A stretch of DNA of 32,239 nucleotides from an uncultured Lachnospiraceae bacterium (GTDB lineage Bacteria > Bacillota > Clostridia > Lachnospirales > Lachnospiraceae), in contig CAMOZG010000006.1 of assembly GCA_946630825.1 (NCBI GenBank), positions 1 through 32,239 of the forward strand, given 5' to 3'. Below are positions 3,317 through 32,064 of the stretch, piece by piece (the first letter of the stretch is position 1; each line of letters opens with the position of its first letter). A program made the translations under genes and the position numbers. The notes beneath the pieces are model-generated. The model was not told the origin of the DNA. It worked only from the letters and a program-made list of their open reading frames with translations, and made no database searches.

Positions 3317-5830
3317 ATGGATGATAACAGACAGAAAATAGAGATATTTAAAATATCACATATTCTTATTCTTGCCATCTATACTGTTTTTTCAATAGTA
3401 CTTATAGGTGAAAGTATCCTTTTGTCCTGGGAGCTCTGGGTCATTCCTCTTGTTATTGCCTCTGTGATCGCATCCTGGTGGATGCATGTGGCAAGGGTCA
3501 TCAGTGAAAAAGCGAGACTCTGGTTTTACGCAATTCTCTGGATGACGGAATTTTTCTTTTATGGCATTCATACCACCGGACCTTACGATATGTCTGTTAT
3601 TATGGCGGGGATCATGATGATCTTCGGTATGACAGGCATTCTCAATCTGGTTACTTATGCTCAGATAGTTTATTATATTACCCTTTCCTACAATCTTTTC
3701 AATATGATAAAAGAGGGGACAGACTGGGATGCAGTTACTGTCACCCGGCTTTTGGTGCATGTGGCTTCCATACTTCTCATTGGATATTTCGTCCGGGTCA
3801 TTGTGCATGAATGGGAAGCTGCCAATACGGTTGCTGATGAAAAGATCCAGGATCTGCAGCGTTCTACCCAGCGTATGGACAATTTCCTTGTAAATGTTTC
3901 CCATGAGATCAGAACTCCTGTAAATGCAGTTATTGGACTTACCTCCGTAATAATGGAGGGCAATAACTTTGATGAAGAAGGCAAAAAGAACCTTTCCGCT
4001 GTAAATGCTGCAGGGCACCGTATATCTGAGCAGATAGGCGATATTTTAGACTATACCGAGATCGATATGGAAAAGCTGGTGGTGACCAATGAGACCTACA
4101 TGATGTCATCACTTTTAAACGATCTGGTCACCGACCTTAACAATACCCAGCACACAGAGCTGGAACTTATCATTGATGTGGATGCAAAGCTGCCGAGAGC
4201 ACTTTCGGGAGATATGATAAAGATCAAAAAGATCATGCGCCACCTCATCATAAACGGACTTAAATTCACCAAATACGGCGGTGTGTATGTGCACATCTAT
4301 CCCCAGAAGAGAAGCTATGGCATCAATCTGTGCATTGAGGTCAGGGATACGGGAACCGGCATGGATAAGGATGAGATAGAGCATGTATTTGAAAGCTTCT
4401 ATCAGTCCGACAGCGGCAGATCAAGAAGCGTAAGCGGACTGGGACTGGGGACTTCCATAGTCTACGGCTTTGTCCGGGAGATGGGAGGCTTTTTGACCAT
4501 TGAGTCCCAAAAGGATCATGGAACCACTGTATCCGTAAGTATCCCCCAGTATGTGGTGGATGAGACCGGCTGCATGACTCTTTCCGACACCAGATCCTAC
4601 TGTATTGCATCACTTTTAAGATACAGGGCAATACCGGATCCACAGATCAGAAGCTTTTACAATGACATGGTCATCAATCTGGCGGGCGGTCTGAATCTGC
4701 CGTTTTATCAGGCGGAGTCCACGGATAATCTAAGAGACCTTTTGAAAAAATACAAGCTGACCCATCTGTTTATCGGGGCAGAGGAATACATGACCGAGCC
4801 CTCCTTCTACGAGAAGCTGGCAGTTGATACCTCGGTGGTGGTGGTGGCGGATCAAAGCTTTGTGCCTAGGGATAACTCCAAGGTCATCATAATCAGAAAG
4901 CCCTTTTACTGCTTCCCTGTCATCAAGGTTTTGGAGACCAGCCGCCAGGTCATAATGGAGGAAAAGGACAAGCGCCGGATGATCACTCCATGGCTCCATG
5001 TTTTAGTGGTGGATGATGAGCCCATGAACCTTATTGTGGCTGAGGGCATATTCAAAAAATACTGCATGGATGTGACGGTGGCAAACTCCGGACTTGAAGC
5101 CATATCCCTGTGCAAGGTCCACCCCTACGACATTGTCTTTATGGACCATATGATGCCTGAGATGGACGGAATAGAAGCCATGCGCAGGATCAAAGCCTTA
5201 AGACCCAATACCTTGGAGAAAAAGGAGACTCTCTTTGTGGCACTTACGGCAAATGTTATAAGCTCAGCCCGGGATATGTTTTTGGCAGAGGGCTTTGACG
5301 GATTTGTCGCCAAGCCCATTGATATCATAGAATTTGAGAGAGTATTAAAGCGGCTTTTGCCCAAGTCCGCCATACAGTATGTGGATGAAGAGGTCATAAA
5401 CACAGCTTCAAATAAGGCAAAGACTGTTGAAGTCAAAGAAGAAAAAAAGCCTAAAGAAAATCCTGACGGCATGGATCCCCTAAGACTGGCTGGGCTTAAT
5501 GTGGAGACCGGCATTGAGTATTCACAGAATGATCAGGGCTTTTATGAGCTTTTGCTTAAGGAATACGGCACAAAGGCAGCGGAAAAGAAAAAGGAGCTCT
5601 GTGATTTCTACGAGGCAAAGGACTGGGAGAATTACACCATAAGGATCCACGCCCTAAAGAGCACCTCAAAGATGATCGGAGCAAATGATATCTTTGAAAT
5701 GGCGCTGGCGCTGGAGCAGGCGTCCAAGGAAAAGGACGAAGAGAAGCTTTTAGACCACGATAAATGTATGAAACGGTATGAAGAAGTATCAACGGCAATA
5801 TTGGAGTATCTGGACAGTGCCCGGAGGTAG
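3317..5830 (+). CDS. Hybrid sensor histidine kinase: multi-TM / HisKA / HATPase / degenerate receiver-like / REC / HPt
   Basis: FLVNVSHEIRTPVNAVIGL (H-box), DTGTGMDKDEIEHVFESF and GLGLGTSIV (N/G boxes), LVVDDEPMNL...DIVFMDHMMPEMDG (REC), YTIRIHALKSTSKMIGA (HPt). Confidence 0.94.
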   Translation: MDDNRQKIEIFKISHILILAIYTVFSIVLIGESILLSWELWVIPLVIASVIASWWMHVARVISEKARLWFYAILWMTEFFFYGIHTTGPYDMSVIMAGIMMIFGMTGILNLVTYAQIVYYITLSYNLFNMIKEGTDWDAVTVTRLLVHVASILLIGYFVRVIVHEWEAANTVADEKIQDLQRSTQRMDNFLVNVSHEIRTPVNAVIGLTSVIMEGNNFDEEGKKNLSAVNAAGHRISEQIGDILDYTEIDMEKLVVTNETYMMSSLLNDLVTDLNNTQHTELELIIDVDAKLPRALSGDMIKIKKIMRHLIINGLKFTKYGGVYVHIYPQKRSYGINLCIEVRDTGTGMDKDEIEHVFESFYQSDSGRSRSVSGLGLGTSIVYGFVREMGGFLTIESQKDHGTTVSVSIPQYVVDETGCMTLSDTRSYCIASLLRYRAIPDPQIRSFYNDMVINLAGGLNLPFYQAESTDNLRDLLKKYKLTHLFIGAEEYMTEPSFYEKLAVDTSVVVVADQSFVPRDNSKVIIIRKPFYCFPVIKVLETSRQVIMEEKDKRRMITPWLHVLVVDDEPMNLIVAEGIFKKYCMDVTVANSGLEAISLCKVHPYDIVFMDHMMPEMDGIEAMRRIKALRPNTLEKKETLFVALTANVISSARDMFLAEGFDGFVAKPIDIIEFERVLKRLLPKSAIQYVDEEVINTASNKAKTVEVKEEKKPKENPDGMDPLRLAGLNVETGIEYSQNDQGFYELLLKEYGTKAAEKKKELCDFYEAKDWENYTIRIHALKSTSKMIGANDIFEMALALEQASKEKDEEKLLDHDKCMKRYEEVSTAILEYLDSARR

Positions 5831-5833
5831 GTT

Positions 5834-8515
5834 TTGTTGAACAAGATCAAAAACATGATCCATAAAATATATAGTGATGAGGAGCGGGACATACAGGAAC
5901 GGCTCTTTTTCGTGATCTGTGTGGTGGGTCTTCTTGCCTATACCTTCACTGTGATCGCCTCCATTTTCATTGGTGAATCCGGTCTCAATATCCTTATCAT
6001 GCTGGTGGGACTTCTGGCGCTTGTACTTATCGTATTTTTCATATTTAAAAATAAAAAGATAAAGTTTGGGGAGTTTTTTGTTTCCTTTTTGATAGTCTAT
6101 ATTCTTTTGCCTCTTATATTTTTCACAGGAGGCGGTATATACGGCGGAGCTTCCATGTGGTTTATATTTGCCATTCTTTTTATCAGCATGGCTATTCAGG
6201 GGAAAATGAGGGTGTTTTTCCAGCTAAGCTGTGCACTGGTGGCGGCAGTCAGCTATGTGGTGGCTTACAAAAATCCCGATTTTGTCACCTTTCATACCAT
6301 AGATACAGCCTATATTGACTCTTTGACCCAGATCATCATTATAGGTCTTATGGTGGTGATAATTACCCAGCTTACCATAAGCATGTACCGTGAAGAAAAC
6401 CGTAAGGCAAAGAAGCAAAAGGAAGAGATCGACGCGCTAAACCGTGCCCAGAACCGGTTCTTTTCCAGCATGAGCCATGAGATCAGGACTCCCATAAATA
6501 CCATTATCGGGCTAAATGAAATGATCCTTCGGGAGGATATTTCGGATGAGATAGCGGAGGATGCGGGAAATATAGAATCCGCCTCAAAGATGCTTTTGCA
6601 GCTTATAAACGACATTTTGGATATGTCAAAGCTGGAAGCGGGAGAGATGAAGATAATCCCCTCGGAGTATTCCCTCAAGGATTTTATCTCTGAAATAGTG
6701 GGGATGTTCTGGATCAGACTCAAGGAAAAGGATCTAGAACTTGTGGTAAACGTGGACCCCACCATCCCCTCGGGTCTTATCGGAGATGAGGTTCGCATAC
6801 AGCAGATTCTTATAAATATAATAAACAATGCCATAAAGTACACAAAGGAGGGTTCCATTACCCTGTCGGTCCAGTGTGAAAGGACAGCCCCCGGCAATGT
6901 AAAGCTTATTTATGCCGTCACGGATACGGGCATAGGTATTAAAAAAGAAAATATTTCCCACCTGTTTTCGGCTTTTTCCCGGGCTGATGATGAGGAAAAC
7001 AAATACGTGGAGGGCACAGGCTTAGGGCTTTCCATAGTAAAACAGCTTGTGGATCTCATGGATGGTGAGGTCACAGTCAACAGTATATATACCCAGGGTT
7101 CCACCTTTATCGTGTCCATACCCCAACAGATCAGTGACGAGACAGAGTTAGGTGATGTGGACTTCCTAAACAGGCACATGGCAAACCGCAGGGAGGATTA
7201 CAGCCAGAGCTTTGAGGCTCCCGAGGCAAGGGTTCTTGTGGTGGACGACAACCACGCAAATATCATTGTTATGAAAAAGCTTTTGCGTGACACCAAGGTG
7301 ATGATAGATTCGGCTGAAAGCGGAGCAGATGCGCTGTCTTTGACCCTGGAAAATTCCTATGATGTGATATTCATGGATCATCTGATGCCGGAAATGGATG
7401 GTATTACCTGCCTGCATCGGATCAGGAATCAGATCGGGGGTATGAGCAGGGAAGCAAAGGTGGTTGCGCTGACAGCCAATGCAGGCAGCGATAGGGAAGC
7501 CTTTTACATCAAAGAGGGCTTTGACGCTTATCTTTTAAAGCCCGTAAACGGCGTGACGGCAGAGAGGATGCTTTTGAGCATGCTGCCGGAGAAAATGGTT
7601 AAGCTTATAAATGCTGATGCAGAGCTTTTGGTTGAACACGGAGAGCATACTTATTCCAAAAACAAAAAAAAGCCTGTGGTCATTACCTCCGAAAGTGTGG
7701 GAGATCTGCCCCAGGAGCTTATCGAAGAGCTTAATATACCCATAATTTCCTACGGTATACACACGGAGGAGGGGTATTTTGTAGACGGAAAGGAAGTTGA
7801 TTCCAAGGGTGTCATAGACTACATGGATCACAGGGGAAAGGTGGCTCACTCTGAATCCCCCAAGGTCAGGGAGTATGAGACATTTTTTGCAGAGCAGCTT
7901 TCCCATGCCAACAATGTGATACACATTACCATGACCCAGGGACTCAACAGCGACTCCTATACAGAGGCTTCCGAGGCTGCAAAGTCCTTTGAAAATGTTA
8001 TGGTTTTAGACTCCAAAAACTTCTCCTGCGGCATGGGTATAGTGATTTTAGAGGCTGTCAGGCTGGCAAGTGAGGGAGTGCCCTTTGACGGAATAGTCGC
8101 CAAGCTAAATGAATTTTTGACCAGGGTGGAGACCAGCTTTATAGTGGACAGCTTGGACTACCTTACCAGAGCCGGTCGTATATCCAAAATTCTCTCTGCC
8201 CTTACGGATGCATTTATGGTTCATCCCGCCCTTAGCTTAACAGGCGGAAAGATCAAAGTAAGACAGGTGTATTTCGGCGCCAGAAAGCGGGCATGGAGGA
8301 GATATATTTCATCTGCTCTTGCGGCTGCGGGACATATAGACAAAAGCAGGCTTTTTGTAGCCTATGCAGGGCTTAGTCAGGATGATCTGAATTATATCAG
8401 AGCCCAGATTGAAAAAAGGGAAAACTTTGATACAATAATCTTTCAGGAGGTTTGCGCCTCCATTACCATAAACTGCGGACCGGGAGCCTTTGGGCTTATG
8501 TTCCAGGATTACTGA
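5834..8515 (+). CDS. Hybrid sensor histidine kinase: multi-TM / HisKA / HATPase / REC with C-terminal DegV domain
   Basis: FFSSMSHEIRTPINTIIGL, DTGIGIKKENISHLFSAFSR, GTGLGLSIVKQLV, VLVVDDNHANI...DVIFMDHLMPEMDG, then PVVITSESVGDLPQELIEEL...VDSLDYLTRAGRISKILSAL...CGPGAFGLMF in one uninterrupted frame. TTG start. Confidence 0.93.
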   Translation: MLNKIKNMIHKIYSDEERDIQERLFFVICVVGLLAYTFTVIASIFIGESGLNILIMLVGLLALVLIVFFIFKNKKIKFGEFFVSFLIVYILLPLIFFTGGGIYGGASMWFIFAILFISMAIQGKMRVFFQLSCALVAAVSYVVAYKNPDFVTFHTIDTAYIDSLTQIIIIGLMVVIITQLTISMYREENRKAKKQKEEIDALNRAQNRFFSSMSHEIRTPINTIIGLNEMILREDISDEIAEDAGNIESASKMLLQLINDILDMSKLEAGEMKIIPSEYSLKDFISEIVGMFWIRLKEKDLELVVNVDPTIPSGLIGDEVRIQQILINIINNAIKYTKEGSITLSVQCERTAPGNVKLIYAVTDTGIGIKKENISHLFSAFSRADDEENKYVEGTGLGLSIVKQLVDLMDGEVTVNSIYTQGSTFIVSIPQQISDETELGDVDFLNRHMANRREDYSQSFEAPEARVLVVDDNHANIIVMKKLLRDTKVMIDSAESGADALSLTLENSYDVIFMDHLMPEMDGITCLHRIRNQIGGMSREAKVVALTANAGSDREAFYIKEGFDAYLLKPVNGVTAERMLLSMLPEKMVKLINADAELLVEHGEHTYSKNKKKPVVITSESVGDLPQELIEELNIPIISYGIHTEEGYFVDGKEVDSKGVIDYMDHRGKVAHSESPKVREYETFFAEQLSHANNVIHITMTQGLNSDSYTEASEAAKSFENVMVLDSKNFSCGMGIVILEAVRLASEGVPFDGIVAKLNEFLTRVETSFIVDSLDYLTRAGRISKILSALTDAFMVHPALSLTGGKIKVRQVYFGARKRAWRRYISSALAAAGHIDKSRLFVAYAGLSQDDLNYIRAQIEKRENFDTIIFQEVCASITINCGPGAFGLMFQDY

Positions 8516-8543
8516 TTACTTTTACATAACAGGGAGGGATCAC

Positions 8544-9536
8544 ATGTATAACTTACTGGTTGTAGATGATACAGAAATAAATCTCATGATGACGGAGCGG
8601 CTTTTAAGTGGTATGCCTGTGTCGGTGGATACCGCCACGGGAGGAGAGGACGCACTTAAGCTTTTAGAAAAAAAGGACTACGATCTGTGCTTATTCGACT
8701 ATCAGATGCCGGGTATGAGCGGAGTGGAGCTTTTAAATGCCATGAAAAATATTGACAGGGATGTATCCGGTTCAAAGGTAGTGGCAATGACAGGCACAGA
8801 GGATGAAAAGGCTGCGGATTATTTTATGGAGCTTGGATTTGACGGCTTTTTAAGAAAGCCAATTATAAAAGAGGAGCTCCTGTCCGTTCTTTTTGAAATG
8901 TTAGGTGATCCCATATTTGATGAAGGCACCACGGATCTGTCCCAGGAGGAGATAGAAAAGATACCACAGGATATCAGAAATATTCCGGAGCTTGACCATA
9001 TTTTAGGCATTAAAAATGCGGGGAGTGCCAGGGATTTTATGTCTGCTATCGGAATTTTCTGCAAGGATATAGACCGAAACTCCAAAGAGATCGAAAATGC
9101 TTTTTCATCCGGTGATATGAAGACCTATACCATCAAGGTCCATGGACTTAAAAGTACAGCAAAAATGATAGGTGCCTTAAAGCTTTCTGAGATGGCGGCT
9201 TCATTGGAGGCGGCTTCCAAAAGCCTTGGGGGAGCGGATCTGGCAAAAGACACTGAGGATATGCTGACATTGTACAGAAGCCTCCATGACAAATTAAAGG
9301 ATGCCATGAAGGAAGAAAAGCATGATGCGGCAGCCCAGAAAAAGATTGATGATGCCTATGCCACCCTTAAGGACTATGCCTATGCAGAGGACTATGATCT
9401 TGTGGAGCTTATCTTAGGGGCAATGGAAAACTACACCATGCCAAGTGCCGACAAGGACAGATTTGACAGGATCAAAAAATGCCTTTTGGAATTTGACTTT
9501 GACGGTATCAAAAGTATTTTGGAGGAAGTGGGATGA
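8544..9536 (+). CDS. Response regulator, REC + HPt, no recognised output domain
   Basis: YNLLVVDDTEINLMM...DLCLFDYQMPGMSG (REC); YTIKVHGLKSTAKMIGA (HPt). ORF track begins at 8490, but ATG 8544 follows aggaggg-like SD and gives the REC N-terminus. Confidence 0.9.
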   Translation: MYNLLVVDDTEINLMMTERLLSGMPVSVDTATGGEDALKLLEKKDYDLCLFDYQMPGMSGVELLNAMKNIDRDVSGSKVVAMTGTEDEKAADYFMELGFDGFLRKPIIKEELLSVLFEMLGDPIFDEGTTDLSQEEIEKIPQDIRNIPELDHILGIKNAGSARDFMSAIGIFCKDIDRNSKEIENAFSSGDMKTYTIKVHGLKSTAKMIGALKLSEMAASLEAASKSLGGADLAKDTEDMLTLYRSLHDKLKDAMKEEKHDAAAQKKIDDAYATLKDYAYAEDYDLVELILGAMENYTMPSADKDRFDRIKKCLLEFDFDGIKSILEEVG

Positions 9537-10303
9537 GTAAAAAGGACACGGTCCTCATAGTCAGTACCCAGGAAAACTTCTTTGTAAATGGTATTGAATT
9601 TAAACTCAACAGCTTTGGGTTTAACGGTATTTACGTTCCCTGTGATTTTGAGACACTGATGCAGTACAGTGATCATGCGGATCTGATCATATATTACATG
9701 GATGAGCATGTGTACGAACATGTCAAGATCCATACCCTTTTAAAGGATATGGTCATGGCTTCCGGCAAACAGATCATACTCATTGGAGAAAGAACAGAGT
9801 ATGAGGCGGTGACCAGGGACCTTTCCGAGAAATACATACTAAAATGGTTTGAGCGACCCTTTGATATGCTAAAGCTTATGAATTTAGTGGGAGCTTTCTT
9901 CAGGGGAGAGACCTCCATAGACATAAGCCAGAAGCATATACTTATCATTGATGATGATGTCACCTACATGGAGATGATCAAAAACTGGCTTAAGGACGAG
10001 TATCTGGTGACACTTACGCCCTCAGCCGTAAAGGCGCTGCCTTATCTCCAGCGAAAGAGGATGGATCTGATAATCCTGGATTATGAGATGCCGGAGATGT
10101 CGGGACCGGAGTTTTTAAAGCAGCTCCACGAAGCTCCTGTAAATAACGACATACCTGTAGTATTTCTTACCGGGCATCAGGATAAGGAAAGCGTGATGAA
10201 TGCCTTGGGGCAAAAGCCGGATGGCTACCTCTTAAAGACCATTGACAATAAGACCCTGCATAAAAAACTGGGGAGTTACTTTTTGGGAAACGAAATAAGC
10301 TGA
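9533..10303 (+). CDS. Two-receiver protein: degenerate N-terminal receiver-like domain + canonical C-terminal REC
   Basis: C-terminal HILIIDDDVTYME...DLIILDYEMPEMSG...VFLTGH...YLLK. N-terminal half has receiver-like layout, but the phospho-Asp region reads DLIIYYMDEH. ATGA overlap with the previous gene. Confidence 0.85.
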   Translation: MSKKDTVLIVSTQENFFVNGIEFKLNSFGFNGIYVPCDFETLMQYSDHADLIIYYMDEHVYEHVKIHTLLKDMVMASGKQIILIGERTEYEAVTRDLSEKYILKWFERPFDMLKLMNLVGAFFRGETSIDISQKHILIIDDDVTYMEMIKNWLKDEYLVTLTPSAVKALPYLQRKRMDLIILDYEMPEMSGPEFLKQLHEAPVNNDIPVVFLTGHQDKESVMNALGQKPDGYLLKTIDNKTLHKKLGSYFLGNEIS

Positions 10304-18322: not shown

Positions 18323-21300
18323 TTGCGCAAAAAGATCTATCGAATGTCGGAGGACAAATTTGATCCGGCATGTGGATTGAAACTTGATACTGACAGACTT
18401 CTGCTTTCCGGAGTTTGCGGCGAGATCTTCGAAGGCTCCTTTGTGGTACGTAGTGACGGGGAGGGGCCGATCCGGGGGATGGTGTATTCCACCAACCCCT
18501 ATATCAGGATCACCAAGCCCAGATTTGACGGCCTGCAGTGCCGCATTACCTTTGCCACGGTACACGGATCTTTTTCCCATGGAGATGTTATCTCCGGGGA
18601 TTTTTATATAGTATGTGCCGGTGTGGATCGAAAGCTTCCCTTTGAGATAACCTTTGGACAGAAGTCCCCTGTGGTGGAGGGGACAGCCATTAAAAATCTG
18701 TCGGATTTTGCGGCTCTTGCCCGGGAACACTGGCAGGCGGCTTTGCGCTTTTTTTCCTCAGATGCCTTTTATGAGGTTATCGAAAATGCCCCTGTTCATA
18801 CCAGACTTTTGTACCGTGGATATAAAAGTGTGGGCATCACCTCTTTTAACATGGAGGAATTTTTAGTAGCCACCGGGCTTAAAAAAAAGATATCATTTTC
18901 CGTGGAGGGGGATGATGATCTAAGCTTTTATGATGTGGATGAAAACCAGAAGCATGTGATCCATGTCAAAAAAAACACCTGGGGCTACATCCATATAGAG
19001 GCTTTCTGCAGGGAGGATTTCATCTCTGTGGAAAGGGAGGATCTCGGCTCCGAGTATTTTATTGGAAGCGATTTGGAGCTGTCCTTTTACATACACCGGG
19101 ATATGCTTCATTCCGGCATAAATAAGGCAGTTATCACCATTAGCGGCGCAGGCATCACAAAGGAGATCGGCATTACCGTATCCACCCGCTCCAAGGAAAT
19201 CTCACAGGAGCATATCCATCACATAGATGAGAGAAAAAGCAGGAGCGCCCTTACGGAGCTCTACATTGACTACAGACTGAAGGCCATTACCACCGGTGAT
19301 TTTTGCAGCAGATCCATTGAGATATTGGATGTGCTCATAGAAGAGCATCCCGACGAGGCAATGTACAAGCTGCAAAAGACCCAGTGCCTCATTGTAAACA
19401 AAAACCGGCAGGAGGCTCTGTGGCAGATATCGGATCTGAAGCGGGAAATAGAGGATAAAAAAAGTACCCAGTGGGCATATCTTATGTATCTGTGTACCCT
19501 TCTTGAGCAGGAGGACACCTATGTGGACAAGCTGACTGCCGAGATAGAGGGGATACTTCTTTTGCATCCCGAGGATGTGAGGATATTCTGGTTTTTGCTT
19601 TTTTTGCGTACCGATTACATCAATGATTCCAGGCGTAAGCTAAGTGACATCCGAAACTGGGTGGAGGCAGGATTCCACAGTCCCTATCTCTATATCGAGG
19701 CATACCGGATATACCAGAGTGACCCCTATCTCTTTAATGAGCTTTCCGACTTTGCCATTAATATCATGCTGTGGGCTGCCAGACATGGGCAGATCTCCGT
19801 GAATTTGGCAGAGCAGTTTCAGGAGCTTTTGGCAGATCAAAAGGCATTTGATGTCAGGGTCTATCGCCTGGCAGGATATATATATGACAGATATCCCCAG
19901 AAGGATCTGCTTTTTGCCATAGTAGCATATCTTTTAAGGGGAAATATGATAGGAAAGGCTTATCTGGATTTTTACCGGATGGCTATTGATAAGGAGATCA
20001 AGCTTACGGGGCTTTATGAGGCATATATCATGTCACTGCCTGCAGACTATGTGGAAAAGCTGCCTGAGCTTGTGACCTTGTATTTCAGGTATGAAAACAA
20101 CCTGTCATATGAGAAAAAAGCCTTTGTATATGCCAATGTGATCACCTACAAAAAGGAAGATCCGAAGCTTTATGACCAGTATAAAAAGACCATACAGCGG
20201 TTTTCCCTGGAGCATATGGCAAAGGGTGATATAGATGACAATTTAGGACTGTGCTACGCAGATCTTTTGGAATCCGGCATAATGGATCACGATATTGCCT
20301 GCGATATGGAGCAGTTTATCTTTACCAACAAGGTCATTACCCTCCATGACAATATAAACAGTGTTATTGTATTTGAGGACTCTCTGGATGCTCCCCACAG
20401 GGCGGCAGTCCATGATTACGGAGCCTTTGTGCCCATATTTACCGGTGACTACCAGGTCTTTTTGGAGACAAGTGACGGAAGCCTTATATCGGATCCCGCA
20501 TATTACAGCGTACAGCCCATATTCAATGCTTCACAATATGTGGAGCGGTTAAGTGTACTTTCCAATGAGACCCTGCCTTATTTTCTATACAACCAGTACA
20601 GGCACAGATCTCCGGATGATTTCACTCCGGCAGAGCTTGATAGGATCGGTGACTTTTTGGAAAGCGATATAATAGATCCTGAGTATAAGCTTCGCAGGCT
20701 TCCGTTTTTCTCCCAGGTATTAAAGCTTTCCGACAGGGAAAAGCCAATTATAGACTACCTGATAAAAAGCGGAAATTACAAAAAGCTGGATACGGAGACC
20801 GGCACCCATGTCATGGATATACTCATAATTTCGGATGAGTATGACTATGCCTACGATATGCTTTTAAACAGCTATGGCATCACAGCTTCCTCCAAATCCC
20901 TTTTGCGTCTTATAACCGACAGATGCAAAAAGACAGAAAAGGAAACGGATGATTTTCTGATCGCCATGTGTGCATATCTGATGCAGCAGTATCTTTTTTC
21001 GGATGCCACTTTAAGCTATCTGAATAACTACTATGTGGGTCCCACCTTTCTCATGGAAAGCGTGTGGAAATTTGCCTATGCCAATGAACTGCCTACAGGG
21101 CTTATAGAAGAGCGGATACTGACCCAGATGCTATATACCGAGGATATGGGAGAGGATTCCGGTGAGATATTTGAAGCCTATATGAAAAAGCGGGTGTCCC
21201 CCATGATAGTGGAGGCATATCTCACCTATTGGAGCCGTACCTATCTAATATCCGAAAAAAAGATCCCGGAGCTCATATTCGGTTATCTGATACCAAAGTA

Positions 21301-21892
21301 TGACAAGTCGGATGGGATGAACGACAGCGAAAAGCTGGCACTCCTTAAATACTTTTGTAAAAACAGGGGAGCCGCCGCGGACAACGAAGTTATATTTGAG
21401 CAGCTTCTGCGGGAGAGCATAAAGAAAAACATAGTTTTCTCCTTTTACCGGGAGGTGGACAGAAAGTACATCACCAGATTCCATCTCTATGACAAGCGCT
21501 ATGTGGAGTACCACGACAAGCCGGGGATGGATATGAGGATATCCTACCGGGATGCTTCCGGTGATCCCTGTGAGAGCAGGATGAATGAGGTGTATGACGG
21601 CATCTATGTAAAGCAGTTTGTCATGTTTTTCGGAGATACCATCAAATACAGACTTTATGACCAGTCGGCGCCGGAGAGCATCCTCCATGAAGGAGAGCTT
21701 ACCATATCCGACAATATCTATCAGGATGAACCCGGCAGATATGGTCTTATAAACCGGATGAAAAGTGATGTACTGTACCGGAATGAAAGAGAGCTTATTG
21801 AGGATATGACCCTTTACAAAAAGTTGGAGTACACTGCCGGACAGTTGTTTTATCCCTTAATGGGTAAAAATTCCACCGAGAGGAAAAATTAG
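18323..21892 (+). CDS. Large (about 1189 aa) uncharacterised protein: N-terminal beta-rich region, long alpha-helical repeat/solenoid-like middle, C-terminal beta-rich region (tentatively DUF5717-like)
   Basis: Long intact ORF with TTG start and upstream aggga. Middle rich in paired-helix segments (e.g. SIEILDVLIEEHPDEAMYKLQKTQCLIVNKNRQEAL). DUF name is from memory, not a search. Confidence 0.75.
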   Translation: MRKKIYRMSEDKFDPACGLKLDTDRLLLSGVCGEIFEGSFVVRSDGEGPIRGMVYSTNPYIRITKPRFDGLQCRITFATVHGSFSHGDVISGDFYIVCAGVDRKLPFEITFGQKSPVVEGTAIKNLSDFAALAREHWQAALRFFSSDAFYEVIENAPVHTRLLYRGYKSVGITSFNMEEFLVATGLKKKISFSVEGDDDLSFYDVDENQKHVIHVKKNTWGYIHIEAFCREDFISVEREDLGSEYFIGSDLELSFYIHRDMLHSGINKAVITISGAGITKEIGITVSTRSKEISQEHIHHIDERKSRSALTELYIDYRLKAITTGDFCSRSIEILDVLIEEHPDEAMYKLQKTQCLIVNKNRQEALWQISDLKREIEDKKSTQWAYLMYLCTLLEQEDTYVDKLTAEIEGILLLHPEDVRIFWFLLFLRTDYINDSRRKLSDIRNWVEAGFHSPYLYIEAYRIYQSDPYLFNELSDFAINIMLWAARHGQISVNLAEQFQELLADQKAFDVRVYRLAGYIYDRYPQKDLLFAIVAYLLRGNMIGKAYLDFYRMAIDKEIKLTGLYEAYIMSLPADYVEKLPELVTLYFRYENNLSYEKKAFVYANVITYKKEDPKLYDQYKKTIQRFSLEHMAKGDIDDNLGLCYADLLESGIMDHDIACDMEQFIFTNKVITLHDNINSVIVFEDSLDAPHRAAVHDYGAFVPIFTGDYQVFLETSDGSLISDPAYYSVQPIFNASQYVERLSVLSNETLPYFLYNQYRHRSPDDFTPAELDRIGDFLESDIIDPEYKLRRLPFFSQVLKLSDREKPIIDYLIKSGNYKKLDTETGTHVMDILIISDEYDYAYDMLLNSYGITASSKSLLRLITDRCKKTEKETDDFLIAMCAYLMQQYLFSDATLSYLNNYYVGPTFLMESVWKFAYANELPTGLIEERILTQMLYTEDMGEDSGEIFEAYMKKRVSPMIVEAYLTYWSRTYLISEKKIPELIFGYLIPKYDKSDGMNDSEKLALLKYFCKNRGAAADNEVIFEQLLRESIKKNIVFSFYREVDRKYITRFHLYDKRYVEYHDKPGMDMRISYRDASGDPCESRMNEVYDGIYVKQFVMFFGDTIKYRLYDQSAPESILHEGELTISDNIYQDEPGRYGLINRMKSDVLYRNERELIEDMTLYKKLEYTAGQLFYPLMGKNSTERKN

Positions 21893-21901
21893 GGGTATGT
21901 G

Positions 21902-23173
21902 ATGCAGACAGACACCAGGGACGAGCTGGGGGTATATTACGGACTGGATATCAGTAATAAATATGCCATGATCAGCTACTATCAACTTAATATGGATGGA
22001 CCTGTGACTATCAGCACCGTAGCCGGTTCCGAGGTGTATCTGATACCCATGTTTTTGGCAAAGCGAAGAGGCATGGCACAGTGGTTTTTCGGAGACGAAG
22101 CCCGCAGACAGGTTGGCATGGGGCTGGCATACGGAGTGGACCGGCTCTATGAGAGAGCGCTTATGCGGGAAAAGGTGGTTGTGGACGCCGAGGAATTTTT
22201 AGCGGTAGACCTCTTTGTCATTTTTTTAAGAAAGCTTATGTCCATGCCGGTTCCCCTGATGCGGGGCAGCTTTTTAAAAAAGCTTACCATTACCGTGGAG
22301 GAGCTTACCATGGAAGCAAAGGAGCTTTTTTCTTTAGTGGCTCAGAAGCTTTCCATCTCCGGCAGCAAGCTGTCACTTTTTGACTATCGGGAGTGCTTTT
22401 ATTACTATGTGTTAAATCAGACCCCATCTCTTTTTTTACATGATGTGGTCTTGTATCACTATGATGAAAACCACATGATAAGTTACAAGCTGACCCGCGA
22501 TCAGTCCTATACACCACAGATAGTCCATCTAAAGACCACTGATGTGGGGCGGCTTTTGGACAACAGGGATGAGACCTTTTACAAGATCGTCTCGGAGGAT
22601 ATGAACAAGTCATACATATCCTCGGTGTATCTGACGGGGGACGGCTTTGACGGCGACTGGCTGAAAAGATCCCTGGAGGTCTTGTGTAAGGGTCGCAGGG
22701 TATTCATGGGGAAAAACCTCTTTTCCAAGGGTGCCTGCCATGCCGGACTGGTTCGTGACGGAAAAAAGGACTGGCCCTTTTTGTTCATAGGAGATCATGA
22801 ACTTAAGGTAAATGTGTCCATAAAGGTTTTGGATAAAAATGAGATGCAGTTTGTCACCCTTTTATCTGCGGGAGAAAACTGGTTTGATGTAAAGGGGGAG
22901 TGCGAGGTCATATTAGACGGAACCAAAGAGGTGGAGTTCTGGATACAAAGACCTGACAGCCGTCAGGCAACGGTAGAGCTTTTAGAGCTTAATGACCTGC
23001 CGGACAGGGACAACCGTACCACCAGACTTCGGATACTGGTGACTCCCATATCCGACAGGGATATCCGCATCAATATCCGGGACTTGGGCTTCGGTGAAGT
23101 GGTGAGATCCAGCGGCAAGGTCTGGGAGCATGTGATTCATGTGAATATGGAGGACGGAATATGGGCGAACTGA
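21902..23173 (+). CDS. Divergent Hsp70/actin-fold-like protein of unknown function (tentatively DUF5716-like)
   Basis: YYGLDISNKYAMISYY (phosphate-1-like), VYLIPMFLAKRRGMAQWFFGDEARRQ (Hsp70-like IPS...GdaA), VYLTGDGFDGDWLKRSLEVLCKGRRVFMGKNLFSKGACHAGL (adenosine-motif-like), beta-rich C-terminus with LPDRDNRTTRLRI. GTG at 21899 or ATG at 21902. Confidence 0.65.
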   Translation: MQTDTRDELGVYYGLDISNKYAMISYYQLNMDGPVTISTVAGSEVYLIPMFLAKRRGMAQWFFGDEARRQVGMGLAYGVDRLYERALMREKVVVDAEEFLAVDLFVIFLRKLMSMPVPLMRGSFLKKLTITVEELTMEAKELFSLVAQKLSISGSKLSLFDYRECFYYYVLNQTPSLFLHDVVLYHYDENHMISYKLTRDQSYTPQIVHLKTTDVGRLLDNRDETFYKIVSEDMNKSYISSVYLTGDGFDGDWLKRSLEVLCKGRRVFMGKNLFSKGACHAGLVRDGKKDWPFLFIGDHELKVNVSIKVLDKNEMQFVTLLSAGENWFDVKGECEVILDGTKEVEFWIQRPDSRQATVELLELNDLPDRDNRTTRLRILVTPISDRDIRINIRDLGFGEVVRSSGKVWEHVIHVNMEDGIWAN

Positions 23174-23988
23174 TCTATTGCAGACATCAGATTGCTGCCA
23201 ATCCATTGTATATAGAGGATTCTTCCCACAATGTATACTCTCTGGAGGAACTGTGCTATTATATCAGACAGAATCCCTATCTGGTCACAAAGGAGATCAT
23301 GTCAAAGGAGCTGTGCGACTGGATCAGGGACGAGCTTTTGGATGAAGAGCTTTCGGATCAGCTTTCCACAGCTATTGACGAGGGACTTCCACTGCATCTG
23401 TTTGTGACCAAGCTTTTGTCAGGCTGCGGATATCTGACCATCAAAGAGATCAGGGATATAGTGGAGCTAATAGCCGATCTGGAAAGCCTTACGGATGCGG
23501 AGAGGAAAAAGGTTCACGCTGATGAGCTGATGCGATCCGGCAGGCTTACGGAAGCCATATACAGCTATGACAGTATACTCTCCGAGGAGGAGGGAATGTC
23601 AGACGAGCTTCAGGCTCTGATATACCACAACAGGGGAACTGCCTTTGCCTGGCTTTTCTTTTTTGAGGAGGCATCCCTGTCATATGAAAAGGCATTTAAT
23701 CTGGGGAAAAAGATAGAGTCTCTTTCCGGCATGCTTTTTTCGGCAGCCCTTATGAACGAGGACACCAGATTTAATATGCTGGCGGAGAAGTATCATGTGA
23801 CTCAAAATGTCATAAAGGATGTTAAAGACGATATCGACACACTGGCATCCTCTGAGGAGATCCAGGGCTTTGTCCAGAAGCTTAAGAGACTCAGGGGTGA
23901 TTACAGTGACCAGACCACATATATGGAACAGATTATGTATATTATATCCGGATTTACAAATGATTATAAGAAGGTAAGCGGGCTTTGA
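23161..23988 (+). CDS. Uncharacterised TPR-like protein
   Basis: Helical repeat-like DAERKKVHADELMRSGRLTEAIYSYDSILSEEEGMSDELQALIYHNRGTAFAWLFFFEEASLSYEKAFNLG; overlaps the previous gene by 13 nt. Confidence 0.7.
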   Translation: MGELIYCRHQIAANPLYIEDSSHNVYSLEELCYYIRQNPYLVTKEIMSKELCDWIRDELLDEELSDQLSTAIDEGLPLHLFVTKLLSGCGYLTIKEIRDIVELIADLESLTDAERKKVHADELMRSGRLTEAIYSYDSILSEEEGMSDELQALIYHNRGTAFAWLFFFEEASLSYEKAFNLGKKIESLSGMLFSAALMNEDTRFNMLAEKYHVTQNVIKDVKDDIDTLASSEEIQGFVQKLKRLRGDYSDQTTYMEQIMYIISGFTNDYKKVSGL

Positions 23989-25172
23989 GTTTTTTTGGCA
24001 AAAAAAATAAAAAGAAAGAGGAGCTGGATGCTTCCTTTGAAAAGGTCTTAAATGAGATCCAGGAAATAGACGACTGGAACAATCCCCAAAAGACGGTTCA
24101 CTATATTTTGGATTCCTGCGAGCAGATCATTGCCCTTACCAAGCAGATCCAGGCTCAGGACGCAGAGATCAATGTGCTGACAAACTACATGGAGGATATT
24201 TTAACCATTAAAAACCTCCCTAAGAACAAAAAGGATGATCTCTATATAGTGGCAAAAAATTTGGAGGAGCTGGACAAATCCAAAAAGACCTACGAAGGAA
24301 AATCTCCACCTCTTACAGACGAACAGTTCATGACCTTAGCTGAAGATGACGAGGGCATACCTGATGTCATAAAACGGATGCAGGAAAATGAGAAGTACCA
24401 GTCTGTAGAAAATAAAAATATGCGTGCCCTTGAGGCAGCCAAAAGCGAATATGAGATAGAGCGTGACAGGATCATGGTATCAAACAGGCTCCTTGCCAGG
24501 ATAACCATGCTCATGGCGATCACATTTATGTCCTTTTTGTTTTTGTTCTTTGTCATCCGGGAGAATGTCAAGATAGATATATCGGCATATCTTCTGGTGC
24601 TGCTTTTTGCCACAGCGGTGGGGATATTTATCATCTTTTTAAGAAGCTCCCATAACAGGCGAAAAAACAGGGAACTGATCAGGTCCATAAATAAGACTAT
24701 TTCGGCTTTAAATGTGGTCAGGATGAAATACGCCAATGTGACCCGTGCCATATCCTACGAACAGGAAAAGTACAAAGTCACCACCTCGGCAGAGCTTAAC
24801 TACCTCTGGGACAGATATGTGGAAATGGTAAGAGCCAGGGATCAGTATGCCAAGGACAATGATGATTACGAGTATTTTATGGCAAGGCTTATGAGGCTTT
24901 TGGCAAAGCTGGATCTCCACGACAAAAAAATATGGAGATCCCAGGTGGCAGCCATAGCCCATGAGGATATCATGGACAAGCTTTATCACAATATAAATCT
25001 CAGACGCAAAAAGGTTAAGCTTCGGAAAGAAGAAAACCTAAACGCAGTGAAAAGCGAGAGGATAGAGATCGACAAGATGATGAAGGAGCATAATTACTAT
25101 ACTCCCGAGGTCTTGGAGATCATCTCCTCAGTGGACAAGATCTGCGGGTTGTCTGCCTATGAAATGAATTAG
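23985..25172 (+). CDS. Coiled-coil membrane protein with a central two-TM hairpin
   Basis: TTG start inside TTGA overlapping the previous stop. Charged/helical flanks around [19 protein letters not shown] and [21 protein letters not shown]. Confidence 0.7.
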
Positions 25173-28355: not shown

Positions 28356-29750
28356 ATGATGAGTAGTGGAAACGAAGGCTTGGCTGTTGCAAGGCTTTCA
28401 TCCTTACTGGATGAAAACAGCTTTGTGGAGCTTTCTTCCGGCGTAACTTCCAGAAGCACTGATTTTAATCAGGATCCCAAGGAAGCCCCCGGAGACGGTG
28501 TTGTTACTGGATATGGTCTTATCGACGAGCGACTGGTATTTGTGTACAGTCAGGATCCCGGAGTCCTTTCCGGTACCATAGGTGAGATGCATGCCAGAAA
28601 GATCAAGGATGTCTATGACAAAGCCATGAAGATGAGGGCGCCTATTATCGGTCTCATTGATTGCGGCGGTGTCAGACTTACGGAATCCTTTGACAGTACG
28701 GAAAGCATTGGACAGATAATCGAAGCTTCTGTGGAGGCTTGCGGAGTAGTGCCCCAGATCACGGCTGTTATGGGTCGCTGCGGCGGAGGACTTGCTGTCC
28801 TTAATTCCATGTCCGATTTTTCGTTTATGAAGGATGGTGCAGAGCTTTTTGTAAACTCTCCTGATGCCATACCGGGAAATAATTCAGAAAAGAATGATAC
28901 CTCAAAGGCAGAGTTTCAGTATAAAGCCGGAAATGTGGACATGATCGGATCCGAGGATGAGATATTAGAGGGTATCCGTGATCTCATATCAGTCCTTCCT
29001 TCTTCCGGCGGAGACGGCGGCTTTGTGGATGATTTTACTGATGATCTAAACAGAGCCTCAGAGGGTCTGGAGACAAAGCGTGACAAGGTAAGCGAGATCG
29101 CAGCCGAGCTTTCCGACGACCATCTGTTTATTGAGACCAAGGGTGGCTTTGCTCCGGGAATGGTGACCGGATTCATCCGCCTTATGGGAGCCACCGTGGG
29201 AGTTATCGGTAATGAGACCTATGAAAATGAGGATGTTCTGACTGCTTTGGGCTGTGCAAAGGCTGCTGATTTCGTCAGATTTTTGGATGCCTTTGACATT
29301 CCTCTTTTATCCCTTACCAATGTGGCAGGATACAAAGCCTGTGTATTCAATGAAGAAAGACTGCCCCGGGCTCTTGCCAAAATGGTGTCGGCAATAGCTG
29401 AGGCGGACATTCCAAAGATCAACCTGATCACCCGTCAGGCAGGCGGCACTGCATATCTTATGATGAACTCCAAGGCTATTGGAGCAGATCTGACCTATGC
29501 ATTTTCTGATGCTGATGTATCTGTTATGGATCCTGCTTTGGCAGCTTCAATTATTGCAGGTGATTCCGGTGATGTGGCAGCCTGCCGTGAAGAATACGCC
29601 ACGTCACAGTCAGGCCTTGACAATGCACTTCGCAGGGGCATGATAGACCGTGTGGTGGATTTTGCAGATGCCAGAAAGTATCTGATCGCAGGATTTGATA
29701 TGCTTTTTGAAAAGGACATGTACATCTACAAAAAGCATGGTACAAAGTAG
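28356..29750 (+). CDS. Acyl-CoA carboxyltransferase-type subunit of a biotin-dependent decarboxylase
   Basis: Crotonase-like carboxyltransferase features: GDGVVTGYGLIDERLVFVYSQDPGVLSGTIGEMHARKIKDVYDKA, APIIGLIDCGGVRL, TAVMGRCGGGLAVL, MVTGFIRLMGATVGVIGN; linked to OadG/BCCP/OadB genes. Confidence 0.88.
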   Translation: MMSSGNEGLAVARLSSLLDENSFVELSSGVTSRSTDFNQDPKEAPGDGVVTGYGLIDERLVFVYSQDPGVLSGTIGEMHARKIKDVYDKAMKMRAPIIGLIDCGGVRLTESFDSTESIGQIIEASVEACGVVPQITAVMGRCGGGLAVLNSMSDFSFMKDGAELFVNSPDAIPGNNSEKNDTSKAEFQYKAGNVDMIGSEDEILEGIRDLISVLPSSGGDGGFVDDFTDDLNRASEGLETKRDKVSEIAAELSDDHLFIETKGGFAPGMVTGFIRLMGATVGVIGNETYENEDVLTALGCAKAADFVRFLDAFDIPLLSLTNVAGYKACVFNEERLPRALAKMVSAIAEADIPKINLITRQAGGTAYLMMNSKAIGADLTYAFSDADVSVMDPALAASIIAGDSGDVAACREEYATSQSGLDNALRRGMIDRVVDFADARKYLIAGFDMLFEKDMYIYKKHGTK

Positions 29751-29761
29751 AGGGGGCGCAT

Positions 29762-30502
29762 ATGAAAAAGAAACTTATATTTTTCACCTGCTGTGTCCTT
29801 TGTATGTTTTTGCTGGTGGCGTGCAGTGGGAAGACTGCCGAGCCGGAAATGTATGGAAATATGACTGCCGGGGATCTCGAGCAGCAGGCCATGGGATTTG
29901 CGGATGAACTGACCTCCATGAGCCCCTCGGATGTGATGCAGGCACAGCTTTACTATTCCATGTATGGAACCCAGGAGGAGAATGGCGAACTTTTTGCCGG
30001 ACTTTTGGATGACTGGACAGAGGTTATTACCACCTGCGGTGATTTTAAGGATTACGGAGAGTTTTCCGTAGAAAAGAGCGGTAAGACAGTTACAGCGAAG
30101 CTGCCCCTTAATTTTACCAAGAGAAATGCAGAGCTGGTATTTGTATACAATGCCTTTGATATGGAGCTTACTTCCATCAATGCAAATCTGATCTACTCCA
30201 CAGGAGAGATCATGAAAAAGGCAGGACTTAATACGGTAATGGGTATCGGAACCGTATTTGTTATACTGATACTTATTTCCCTGCTGATAAGCTGCTTTAA
30301 GATCATTCCAAAGATCCAGGAGAGCATGGCTAAAAAGGATGAGGTCATAGAGGCCTCTCCCGAAAACTTAGAGCAGATAAGAGCCGAGGAATCCCGGGAC
30401 GAGGATGACGGCGAGCTTATAGCGGTGATAGCTGCAGCCATAGCTGCAAGCACAGGTGCATCTACAGATTCATTTGTAGTAAGGTCAATTCGCAGGATAT
30501 AA
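29762..30502 (+). CDS. OadG-like gamma subunit with lipobox and added extracytoplasmic domain
   Basis: C-terminal TVMGIGTVFVILILISLLISCFKIIPKI ... DDGELIAVIAAAIAAST...FVVRSIRRI matches OadG style; N-terminus MKKKLIFFTCCVLCMFLLVACSGK has a lipobox. Confidence 0.82.
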   Translation: MKKKLIFFTCCVLCMFLLVACSGKTAEPEMYGNMTAGDLEQQAMGFADELTSMSPSDVMQAQLYYSMYGTQEENGELFAGLLDDWTEVITTCGDFKDYGEFSVEKSGKTVTAKLPLNFTKRNAELVFVYNAFDMELTSINANLIYSTGEIMKKAGLNTVMGIGTVFVILILISLLISCFKIIPKIQESMAKKDEVIEASPENLEQIRAEESRDEDDGELIAVIAAAIAASTGASTDSFVVRSIRRI

Positions 30503-30532
30503 TCGAAGATTAATTATAAGGAAGGAGTTATT

Positions 30533-30895
30533 ATGAAAAACTATACCATAACAGTAAACGGAACAGCTTATGATGTTACGGTGGAGGAAAAGGGCGGATC
30601 ATCCGCATCAAGCGCACCTGCTCCCGCAGCCAAGGCTGCTCCCAAAAGGGCAGCTGCTCAAAGCGGTGGTGCCGGAGCTGTAAAGATAGAAGCCGGTGCA
30701 GCAGGTAAGGTATTTAAGATCTCAGCCTCTGTTGGATCCAGTGTTAAAAAGGGCGATCCCATAGTAGTGCTTGAGGTTATGAAGATGGAGACTCCTGTAG
30801 TGGCTCCCGTAGACGGAGTAGTCAAGAGCATTGATGTGGTTGAAGGTACTTCCATTGAGTCAGGAGCACTTCTTGCAACAATGGATGAAGCATAA
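30533..30895 (+). CDS. Biotin carboxyl carrier protein/subunit
   Basis: Ala/Pro-rich linker then biotinyl motif VLEVMKMETPVVAPVDGVV. Confidence 0.95.
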   Translation: MKNYTITVNGTAYDVTVEEKGGSSASSAPAPAAKAAPKRAAAQSGGAGAVKIEAGAAGKVFKISASVGSSVKKGDPIVVLEVMKMETPVVAPVDGVVKSIDVVEGTSIESGALLATMDEA

Positions 30896-30915
30896 TTTTT
30901 GAGGAGGAGCAATTT

Positions 30916-32064
30916 ATGAGTTATGTTGCGGAGACAATGGGAAATCTCCTCCATCAGACAGCATTTTTTAATCTGACTGTGGGCAACTACATCATGATCC
31001 TTGTGGCGTGTGTATTTTTATATCTTGCTATCAGAAAGGGTTATGAGCCATTGCTTTTGGTTCCCATTGCATTTGGTATGCTATTAGTAAATATTTATCC
31101 TGATATCATGGCTTCCCCTGAGGAGACCAGCAACGGAGTGGGAGGACTTTTGTATTATTTCTTCTCTTTGGATGAATGGTCCATACTTCCGTCTCTTATT
31201 TTCCTGGGAGTCGGCGCCATGACGGACTTTGGTCCCCTTATAGCCAATCCCATAAGCTTCCTTCTGGGTGCGGCAGCCCAGATAGGTATATTTACAGCCT
31301 ATCTTTTAGCTATCTTACTTGGATTTAATGATGAGGCTGCAGCGGCAGTATCCATCATTGGAGGAGCAGACGGTCCCACCTCCATCTTTTTGGCAGGTAA
31401 GCTGGGACAGAGTCAGCTTATGGGTCCCATAGCAGTGGCGGCATATTCCTATATGTCACTGGTGCCCATAATACAGCCTCCTATCATGAAGCTTTTTACC
31501 ACGAAAAAAGAGCGGGCTATCAAGATGGATAATCTGCGTACAGTATCAAAGCTGGAGCGCATACTTTTCCCCATTATCGTTACCATTGTAGTCTGCCTGC
31601 TTCTGCCCACCACGGCACCCTTGGTTGGTATGCTTATGCTGGGAAATCTTTTCCGTGAATCGGGAGTGGTAAGACAGCTTACAGATACGGCAAGTAATGC
31701 ACTTATGTATATAGTGGTCATTTTGCTTGGAACTTCCGTTGGTGCATCAACCAGCGCAGAGGCTTTCCTTAACTGGACCACCATTAAGATCGTTGCCCTC
31801 GGACTTGTGGCATTTGCCTTTGGTACGGCTGGTGGTGTGCTTTTCGGCAAGCTGCTTTGCCATCTGACCCACGGTAAGATCAATCCTCTTATCGGGTCTG
31901 CGGGAGTGTCTGCAGTTCCCATGGCAGCCCGTGTGTCCCAAAAGGTTGGAGCCGAAGAGGATCCCACCAACTTCCTGCTTATGCACGCCATGGGACCCAA
32001 TGTTGCCGGCGTAATAGGAACCGCCGTAGCCGCCGGTATGTTTATGGCAATGTTCGGAGTATGA
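30916..32064 (+). CDS. Sodium ion-translocating decarboxylase beta subunit (OadB/GcdB/MmdB family)
   Basis: Highly hydrophobic; FLGVGAMTDFGPLIANP, IIGGADGPTSIFLAGKL, GLIGSAGVSAVPMAARVSQKVG-like region (PLIGSAGVSAVPMAARVSQ), LMHAMGPNVAGVIGTAVAAG. Confidence 0.95.
   Translation: MSYVAETMGNLLHQTAFFNLTVGNYIMILVACVFLYLAIRKGYEPLLLVPIAFGMLLVNIYPDIMASPEETSNGVGGLLYYFFSLDEWSILPSLIFLGVGAMTDFGPLIANPISFLLGAAAQIGIFTAYLLAILLGFNDEAAAAVSIIGGADGPTSIFLAGKLGQSQLMGPIAVAAYSYMSLVPIIQPPIMKLFTTKKERAIKMDNLRTVSKLERILFPIIVTIVVCLLLPTTAPLVGMLMLGNLFRESGVVRQLTDTASNALMYIVVILLGTSVGASTSAEAFLNWTTIKIVALGLVAFAFGTAGGVLFGKLLCHLTHGKINPLIGSAGVSAVPMAARVSQKVGAEEDPTNFLLMHAMGPNVAGVIGTAVAAGMFMAMFGV

Follow-up and report, generated by a model that had tools for sequence, protein, structure and literature searches.

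Probable origin of a DUF5717–DUF5716 gene block of Lachnospiraceae in an Hsp70–GrpE operon

Introduction

The Pfam families DUF5717 and DUF5716 are catalogued with no function given. Where do their members come from, and what might they do together? We address this question at a block of four genes (A, B, C, and D) on contig CAMOZG010000006.1 (assembly GCA_946630825.1) of an uncultured Lachnospiraceae bacterium. The window is the whole stretch analysed, 32,239 nucleotides. We propose that the block is probably a reduced descendant of an Hsp70–GrpE operon, and that A, B, and C would form an ATP-independent scaffold resembling Ssz1 and the ribosome-associated complex (RAC), tethered to the membrane where D is present.

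All four genes lie on the + strand. Gene A (18323..21892; 1189 aa, TTG start) encodes a DUF5717 protein. Gene B (21899..23173; 424 aa, GTG then ATG) encodes a DUF5716 protein, a degenerate Hsp70 by prediction and an orthologue of the protein H2 described below. Gene C (23161..23988; 275 aa) encodes a protein resembling tetratricopeptide repeat (TPR) proteins. Gene D (23985..25172; 395 aa, TTG start) encodes a protein with two predicted transmembrane segments and is an optional member. A and B are separated by 6 nt (9 nt counted to the in-frame ATG of B), and overlaps of 13 nt and 4 nt (TTGA) join B to C and C to D. The intergenic distances to the flanking genes are 17 nt (purB–A) and 20 nt (D–gltX). 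Our check of open reading frames (ORFs) and junctions agrees with the preliminary description of this DNA on the four ORFs, their strand and positions, the gap and overlaps, and the names of both flanking genes.

Gene B resembles an Hsp70 with a decayed active site

A and B both score above the Pfam curated cut-offs of DUF5717/DUF5716. B matches PF18980 (DUF5716_C) with 341.8 bits (3e-102; cut-off 34.7). A matches PF18984 (710.8 bits, 2.8e-213; cut-off 25) and PF18983 (259.4 bits, 5e-77; cut-off 25), which together cover its full length.

The model of B (pLDDT 81) has a nucleotide-binding-domain-like core and the beta part of the substrate-binding domain (SBD-beta). The core comprises residues 1–290 (21899..22768, +), of which about 178–223 are poorly modelled. 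The SBD-beta-like domain comprises residues 303–416 (22805..23146, +), with eight strands between residues 305 and 414. The chain stops after these strands, and the helical lid (SBD-alpha) is absent. The alignment used for the model consists of the window and related loci retrieved for it, leaving out the closest family homologues of B. A Foldseek search with the whole chain retrieves DnaK (E 6e-18) and also the Ssz1 structure 6sr6. In addition, a profile of H2 and B matches DnaK chains in the PDB (E 1.7e-25). A phmmer search of the PDB with the B sequence alone finds no Hsp70. The fold and profile evidence is in accordance with the earlier suggestion that B is Hsp70-like, and points to a degenerate Hsp70.

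The set of Hsp70 ATPase residues and phosphate loops is not found in the window's B. Could B nevertheless be a working, nucleotide-regulated Hsp70 whose divergent motifs bind ATP otherwise, with A–B–C cycling as an active chaperone? The overall fold is retained, and so is the aspartate of the first phosphate loop (GLDISNKY). However, the equivalents of K70, E171, and T199 are lost, HYDENHMIS stands in the second phosphate loop in place of the DLGGGTFD of DnaK, and the GrpE-like factor of the related operon is absent, which makes an active B unlikely.

A related operon in sister families encodes four Hsp70s and a GrpE-domain protein

In a search of the order with PF18980, families other than Lachnospiraceae often have two matches near each other. 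The full operon has the order A–H1–X–H2–H3–H4–C, in which H1 to H4 are Hsp70 paralogues and X carries a GrpE domain. D follows in a few loci, and A is either one gene or a pair of about 390 and 900 aa. In locus L042, Pfam detects HSP70 in H1 (5e-76), H3 (7e-63), and H4 (4.5e-96), VWA in H4 (1.9e-10), GrpE (PF01025) in X (3e-13), DUF5717_N in A' (1.7e-83), and TPR in C', where the matches are strong. X is a long helical protein with the GrpE domain at its end and a profile match to the GrpE structure 4ani (E 0.0018). The GrpE C-terminal domain is thus present in the full operon, and X is absent from the window. H4 ends in a vWA domain, with the metal-site motif DTTGS in 28 of 29 cases. H1, H3, and H4 retain GTTNS, K70, E171, and GGGTxD; H2 is without the K70, E171, and T199 equivalents. 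Neither the block proteins nor the seven proteins scanned from the L042 operon give a DnaJ match.

Scanning genome contigs with X yields 51 loci, mostly from metagenome-assembled genomes (MAGs) of Defluviitaleaceae; the rest include Candidatus Epulonipiscium MAGs, Defluviitalea phaphyphila, and Petrocella. The Epulonipiscium MAGs are Lachnospiraceae according to NCBI, and the genome collection puts the matching genome (G029) outside the window's family. The complete run Hsp70–X–Hsp70–Hsp70–Hsp70 is present in 30 of the 51 loci; in 21 of these, A precedes and C follows the run. Many of the remaining loci are truncated at contig ends or have broken ORFs. In L050 (15234-19901) and L103 (2420-7684), the place before H1 where A is expected is taken by a large different protein that the A profiles do not match.

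The full operon and the relation between B and H2 are apparently undescribed in the open-access literature, which we searched non-exhaustively. This search found one unrelated paper on DUF5717/DUF5716, no link of these families to an Hsp70–GrpE operon, and no Hsp70 cluster closer than those of Kaur et al. (PMC7159879).

B groups with H2 in the Hsp70 tree

Profiles made from the window's family only match the full-operon loci with best E-values of 1e-178 (A'), 6e-101 (H2), 1.8e-33 (C'), and 5e-69 (D'). The median scores of the B profile are 147 bits for H2, 91 for H3, 18 for H4, and 12 for H1. In the tree, B forms one clade (support 99) inside the H2 clade (H2+B, support 100), near the H2 of L070 and L047. 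H3 is the sister of H2+B, and H1 and H4 lie outside. A tree constrained to group B with H3 is worse by 106 log-likelihood units and is rejected by the approximately unbiased (AU) test (p-AU 0.0004). Members of both the compact and the full form also have common neighbours, a divergent class I/II aminotransferase gene upstream and valS downstream, which points to one and the same locus. From the position of B inside the H2 clade, and of H3 as sister to H2+B, the block is most simply explained by reduction. In this simplest reading of the sequences, loss of H1, X, H3, and H4 would have given the compact block.

Counts over whole genomes are in line with this loss. Full-form genomes have a canonical GrpE and X; of the ten family genomes counted, nine have the canonical GrpE alone above the cut-off. 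These nine are near-complete; the tenth, with no GrpE above the cut-off, is the window's own genome (81% complete). Hsp70 counts are lower in the family genomes than in full-form genomes, and no ORF for a vWA-type Hsp70 (H4) is seen in the family genomes counted. In one closed 4.5 Mb family genome, the PF00012 matches are DnaK and MreB-like proteins only.

Two further Hsp70s of family genomes lie in other surroundings, one beside an AAA ATPase with two AAA stretches (L164:5587-9993) and one beside a DnaJ-like protein (L165:2507-5791). We considered them as relocated operon genes; both look separate by their neighbours, and they are off the tree.

A, B, and C are co-conserved, and D is optional

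Gene A is found in 147 of 150 sampled genera of the window's family, a count of A alone; A, B, and C jointly were checked in 36 other loci of the family. The three genes co-occur in the same order in all 36. Nineteen of these loci were picked for holding B, and all have A and C; 17 were picked for holding A, and all have B and C. The count includes one B under an antisense ORF (L061) and one B–C fusion (L161). Because the order A–B–C is present in every related locus examined, the block is not a chance arrangement. The typical spacing in relatives is -20 to 49 nt for A–B, -32 to 95 nt for B–C, and -4 to 31 nt for C–D. In the fusion (L161:9834-11888), B and C form a single 684-aa ORF with a linker between them, which fits a physical association of B with C.

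In the closest species pair compared, the synonymous differences (pS) are 0.72–0.85 and the nonsynonymous differences (pN) are 0.09–0.15 across all four genes. Synonymous changes are near saturation and nonsynonymous changes are few; therefore, the genes are not decaying, and sequence comparison indicates that all four evolve under purifying selection. Among 398 genomes of the phylum, PF18984 has no match outside the window's family. Among 288 genomes of the class, an A profile gives just four weak partial matches outside the family (20–24 bits), which we take as TPR background.

Homologues of D occur directly after C in 17 of the 36 other family loci (18 of 37 with the window). They also occur in six full-operon loci, a number in which one contig is represented twice, and D is absent from most full-operon loci. 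The two hydrophobic segments of D are flanked by charged arms that are presumably coiled coils. The segments (residues 168–223; 24486..24653, +; Kyte–Doolittle peaks 2.55 and 2.75) are predicted to span the membrane. In one relative (L068:5761-8613), D and gltX lie in a single 950-aa ORF with an acidic linker, either a true fusion or a lost stop.

The preliminary description had proposed a fixed stoichiometric complex of all four proteins, with D as a membrane coiled-coil anchor, and had named missing co-conservation across related genomes as the observation that would speak against a system. Across the family, A, B, and C are conserved together, and the observation is therefore not made for them; D, in 17 of 36 loci, is not co-conserved. 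The fixed four-member complex therefore has to be given up. The two hydrophobic segments agree with D as an anchor, but membrane tethering cannot be general: about half of the family loci and most full operons have no D.

The same description offered, beside a chaperone-like machine, a membrane-anchored device of envelope or secretion assembly. The membrane segments of D and its place straight after C would fit such a device, but D is optional as just described, a hydropathy scan finds no hydrophobic membrane segment in A or C, and the neighbours common to both forms are metabolic or tRNA-charging genes. We regard this proposal, which the data do not support, as improbable. Neither purB nor gltX is a conserved neighbour, and their adjacency is incidental: several relatives have purB on the downstream side, and the neighbours common to compact and full loci are the aminotransferase gene and valS.

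A and C have TPR-like features

The AlphaFold2 model of A (pLDDT 73, pTM 0.41) shows, in order, a beta domain, a solenoid with a beta insertion, a solenoid, and a beta domain; because the pTM is 0.41, the global arrangement is unsure. The N-terminal beta-sandwich-like domain (residues 26–112; 18398..18658, +) has strands mostly at pLDDT 70–85. Helix pairs form the alpha-solenoid (residues 289–1052; 19187..21478, +), with the beta insertion at about 668–716. The C-terminal beta domain (residues 1058–1128; 21494..21706, +) lies within the PF18983 match. Foldseek matches the solenoid to TPR scaffolds (E about 1e-5) with TM-scores of just 0.1–0.2, and the A profile matches TPR proteins in the PDB. 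A is thus modelled as a TPR-like alpha-solenoid scaffold with beta domains.

In an N-terminal alignment, C has an N-terminal domain with a 'YSLEEL' stretch, followed by TPR-like repeats. A Pfam scan finds no family for C or D, and the TPR match of C is weak and below threshold. A search of the PDB finds no relative of the N-terminal domain of C (best E 0.11). NCBIfam and PADLOC give nothing useful for A–D. With a TPR-type A and a degenerate Hsp70 B, the scaffold- or chaperone-like character ascribed earlier to these proteins holds.

Comparison with known systems

Ssz1 has no lid, binds ATP without hydrolysing it, and has its SBD-beta filled by a partner segment (PMC7083937). B is similar in its Hsp70 fold, its SBD-beta, its missing lid, and its fold match to 6sr6. 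Unlike Ssz1–Zuo1, the block is bacterial, its partners are a TPR solenoid and a TPR protein, and ribosome binding is not indicated. Ssz1 retains ATP binding, which B may have lost. Because the block has no J-domain protein, we compare A–B–C with RAC and do not file it as a member.

The full operon resembles DnaK–GrpE in having Hsp70s with intact ATPase motifs and a GrpE-domain protein. It differs in its four Hsp70 paralogues, one fused to vWA, in the GrpE domain carried on a long helical protein, and in the lack of a J-domain protein in the operon examined (L042). The window block keeps no active part.

The conflict systems of firmicutes presented by Kaur et al. (PMC7159879) contain HSP70, GrpE, an HSP70 without the peptide-binding domain, and TPR or DnaJ fusions. 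The likeness to these GAP1-N2 systems (Hsp70, GrpE, a degenerate second Hsp70, and TPR, in firmicutes) raises the possibility of a defence function. However, no adjacent GAP1-N2 GTPase, nor any GTPase family, is among the Pfam matches of the window genes or the L042 operon genes. PADLOC finds no match for A–D and weak partial matches only for full-operon proteins. Unlike patchy defence islands, A is in almost every genus of the family and its neighbours are kept in relatives. A defence role is thus very improbable.

That the compact form is ancestral, and that the full operon arose later when B was duplicated and a GrpE was gained, is scarcely credible. The compact form is found throughout the best-sampled family, but B falls with H2, their joint clade has H3 as its sister and excludes H1 and H4, and the B–H3 grouping is rejected. 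In addition, the active site has decayed in H2 and B, and its residues are intact in H1, H3, and H4.

Other genes of the window

A phosphorelay cluster of four genes (3317-10303) lies upstream of the block. It includes a hybrid histidine kinase (5834-8515; HisKA, HATPase, and receiver) that carries a DegV domain at its C-terminus, a fusion that looks unusual. A decarboxylase set comprising a carboxyltransferase, OAD gamma, a biotin carrier, and OAD beta is located at 28356-32064.

Discussion

Reduction from an Hsp70–GrpE operon to an ATP-independent, Ssz1/RAC-like scaffold is the explanation that we consider probable for the block. A (solenoid), B, and C (TPR) would form a stable complex, in which B would no longer cycle with ATP and would be a static clamp or scaffold. 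Much as Ssz1 does, it would hold a partner segment or a client in its SBD-beta, and A and C would bring the clients. The cell's ordinary DnaK, GrpE, and DnaJ might supply the ATP-driven step that formerly came from H1, H3, and H4. Where the locus includes D, this protein would fix the assembly to the membrane.

Several points weigh against this explanation. We infer complex formation, the clients, the location, and the cell function, and a connection to DnaK is no more than a conjecture. The loss of ATPase activity in B is read from motifs, and nucleotide binding by B may persist. The tree is a quick one made without bootstraps, and H2 and B evolve fast and sit on long branches in it; the exact position of B inside H2 is therefore less secure than its support values imply. 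Extra Hsp70s of some family genomes are not on the tree. In addition, the near family-wide occurrence is that of A, and the joint occurrence of A, B, and C is that of 36 loci.

The reduced-operon explanation can be taken further, more tentatively. The block may be a near family-wide bacterial counterpart of RAC, in which an Hsp70 without ATPase serves as the permanent clamp of an A–B–C client-handling scaffold, with sister families keeping the original machine of four Hsp70s, including a vWA-Hsp70, and a dedicated GrpE; we hold this as a possibility rather than an expectation.

The Hsp70–GrpE machine would be the first testable origin for two Pfam families without function, found in nearly all genera of a dominant human gut family. 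With H1, H3, and H4 intact, H2 decayed, and B more decayed, these proteins would form a natural series from an ATP-driven chaperone to a structural part.

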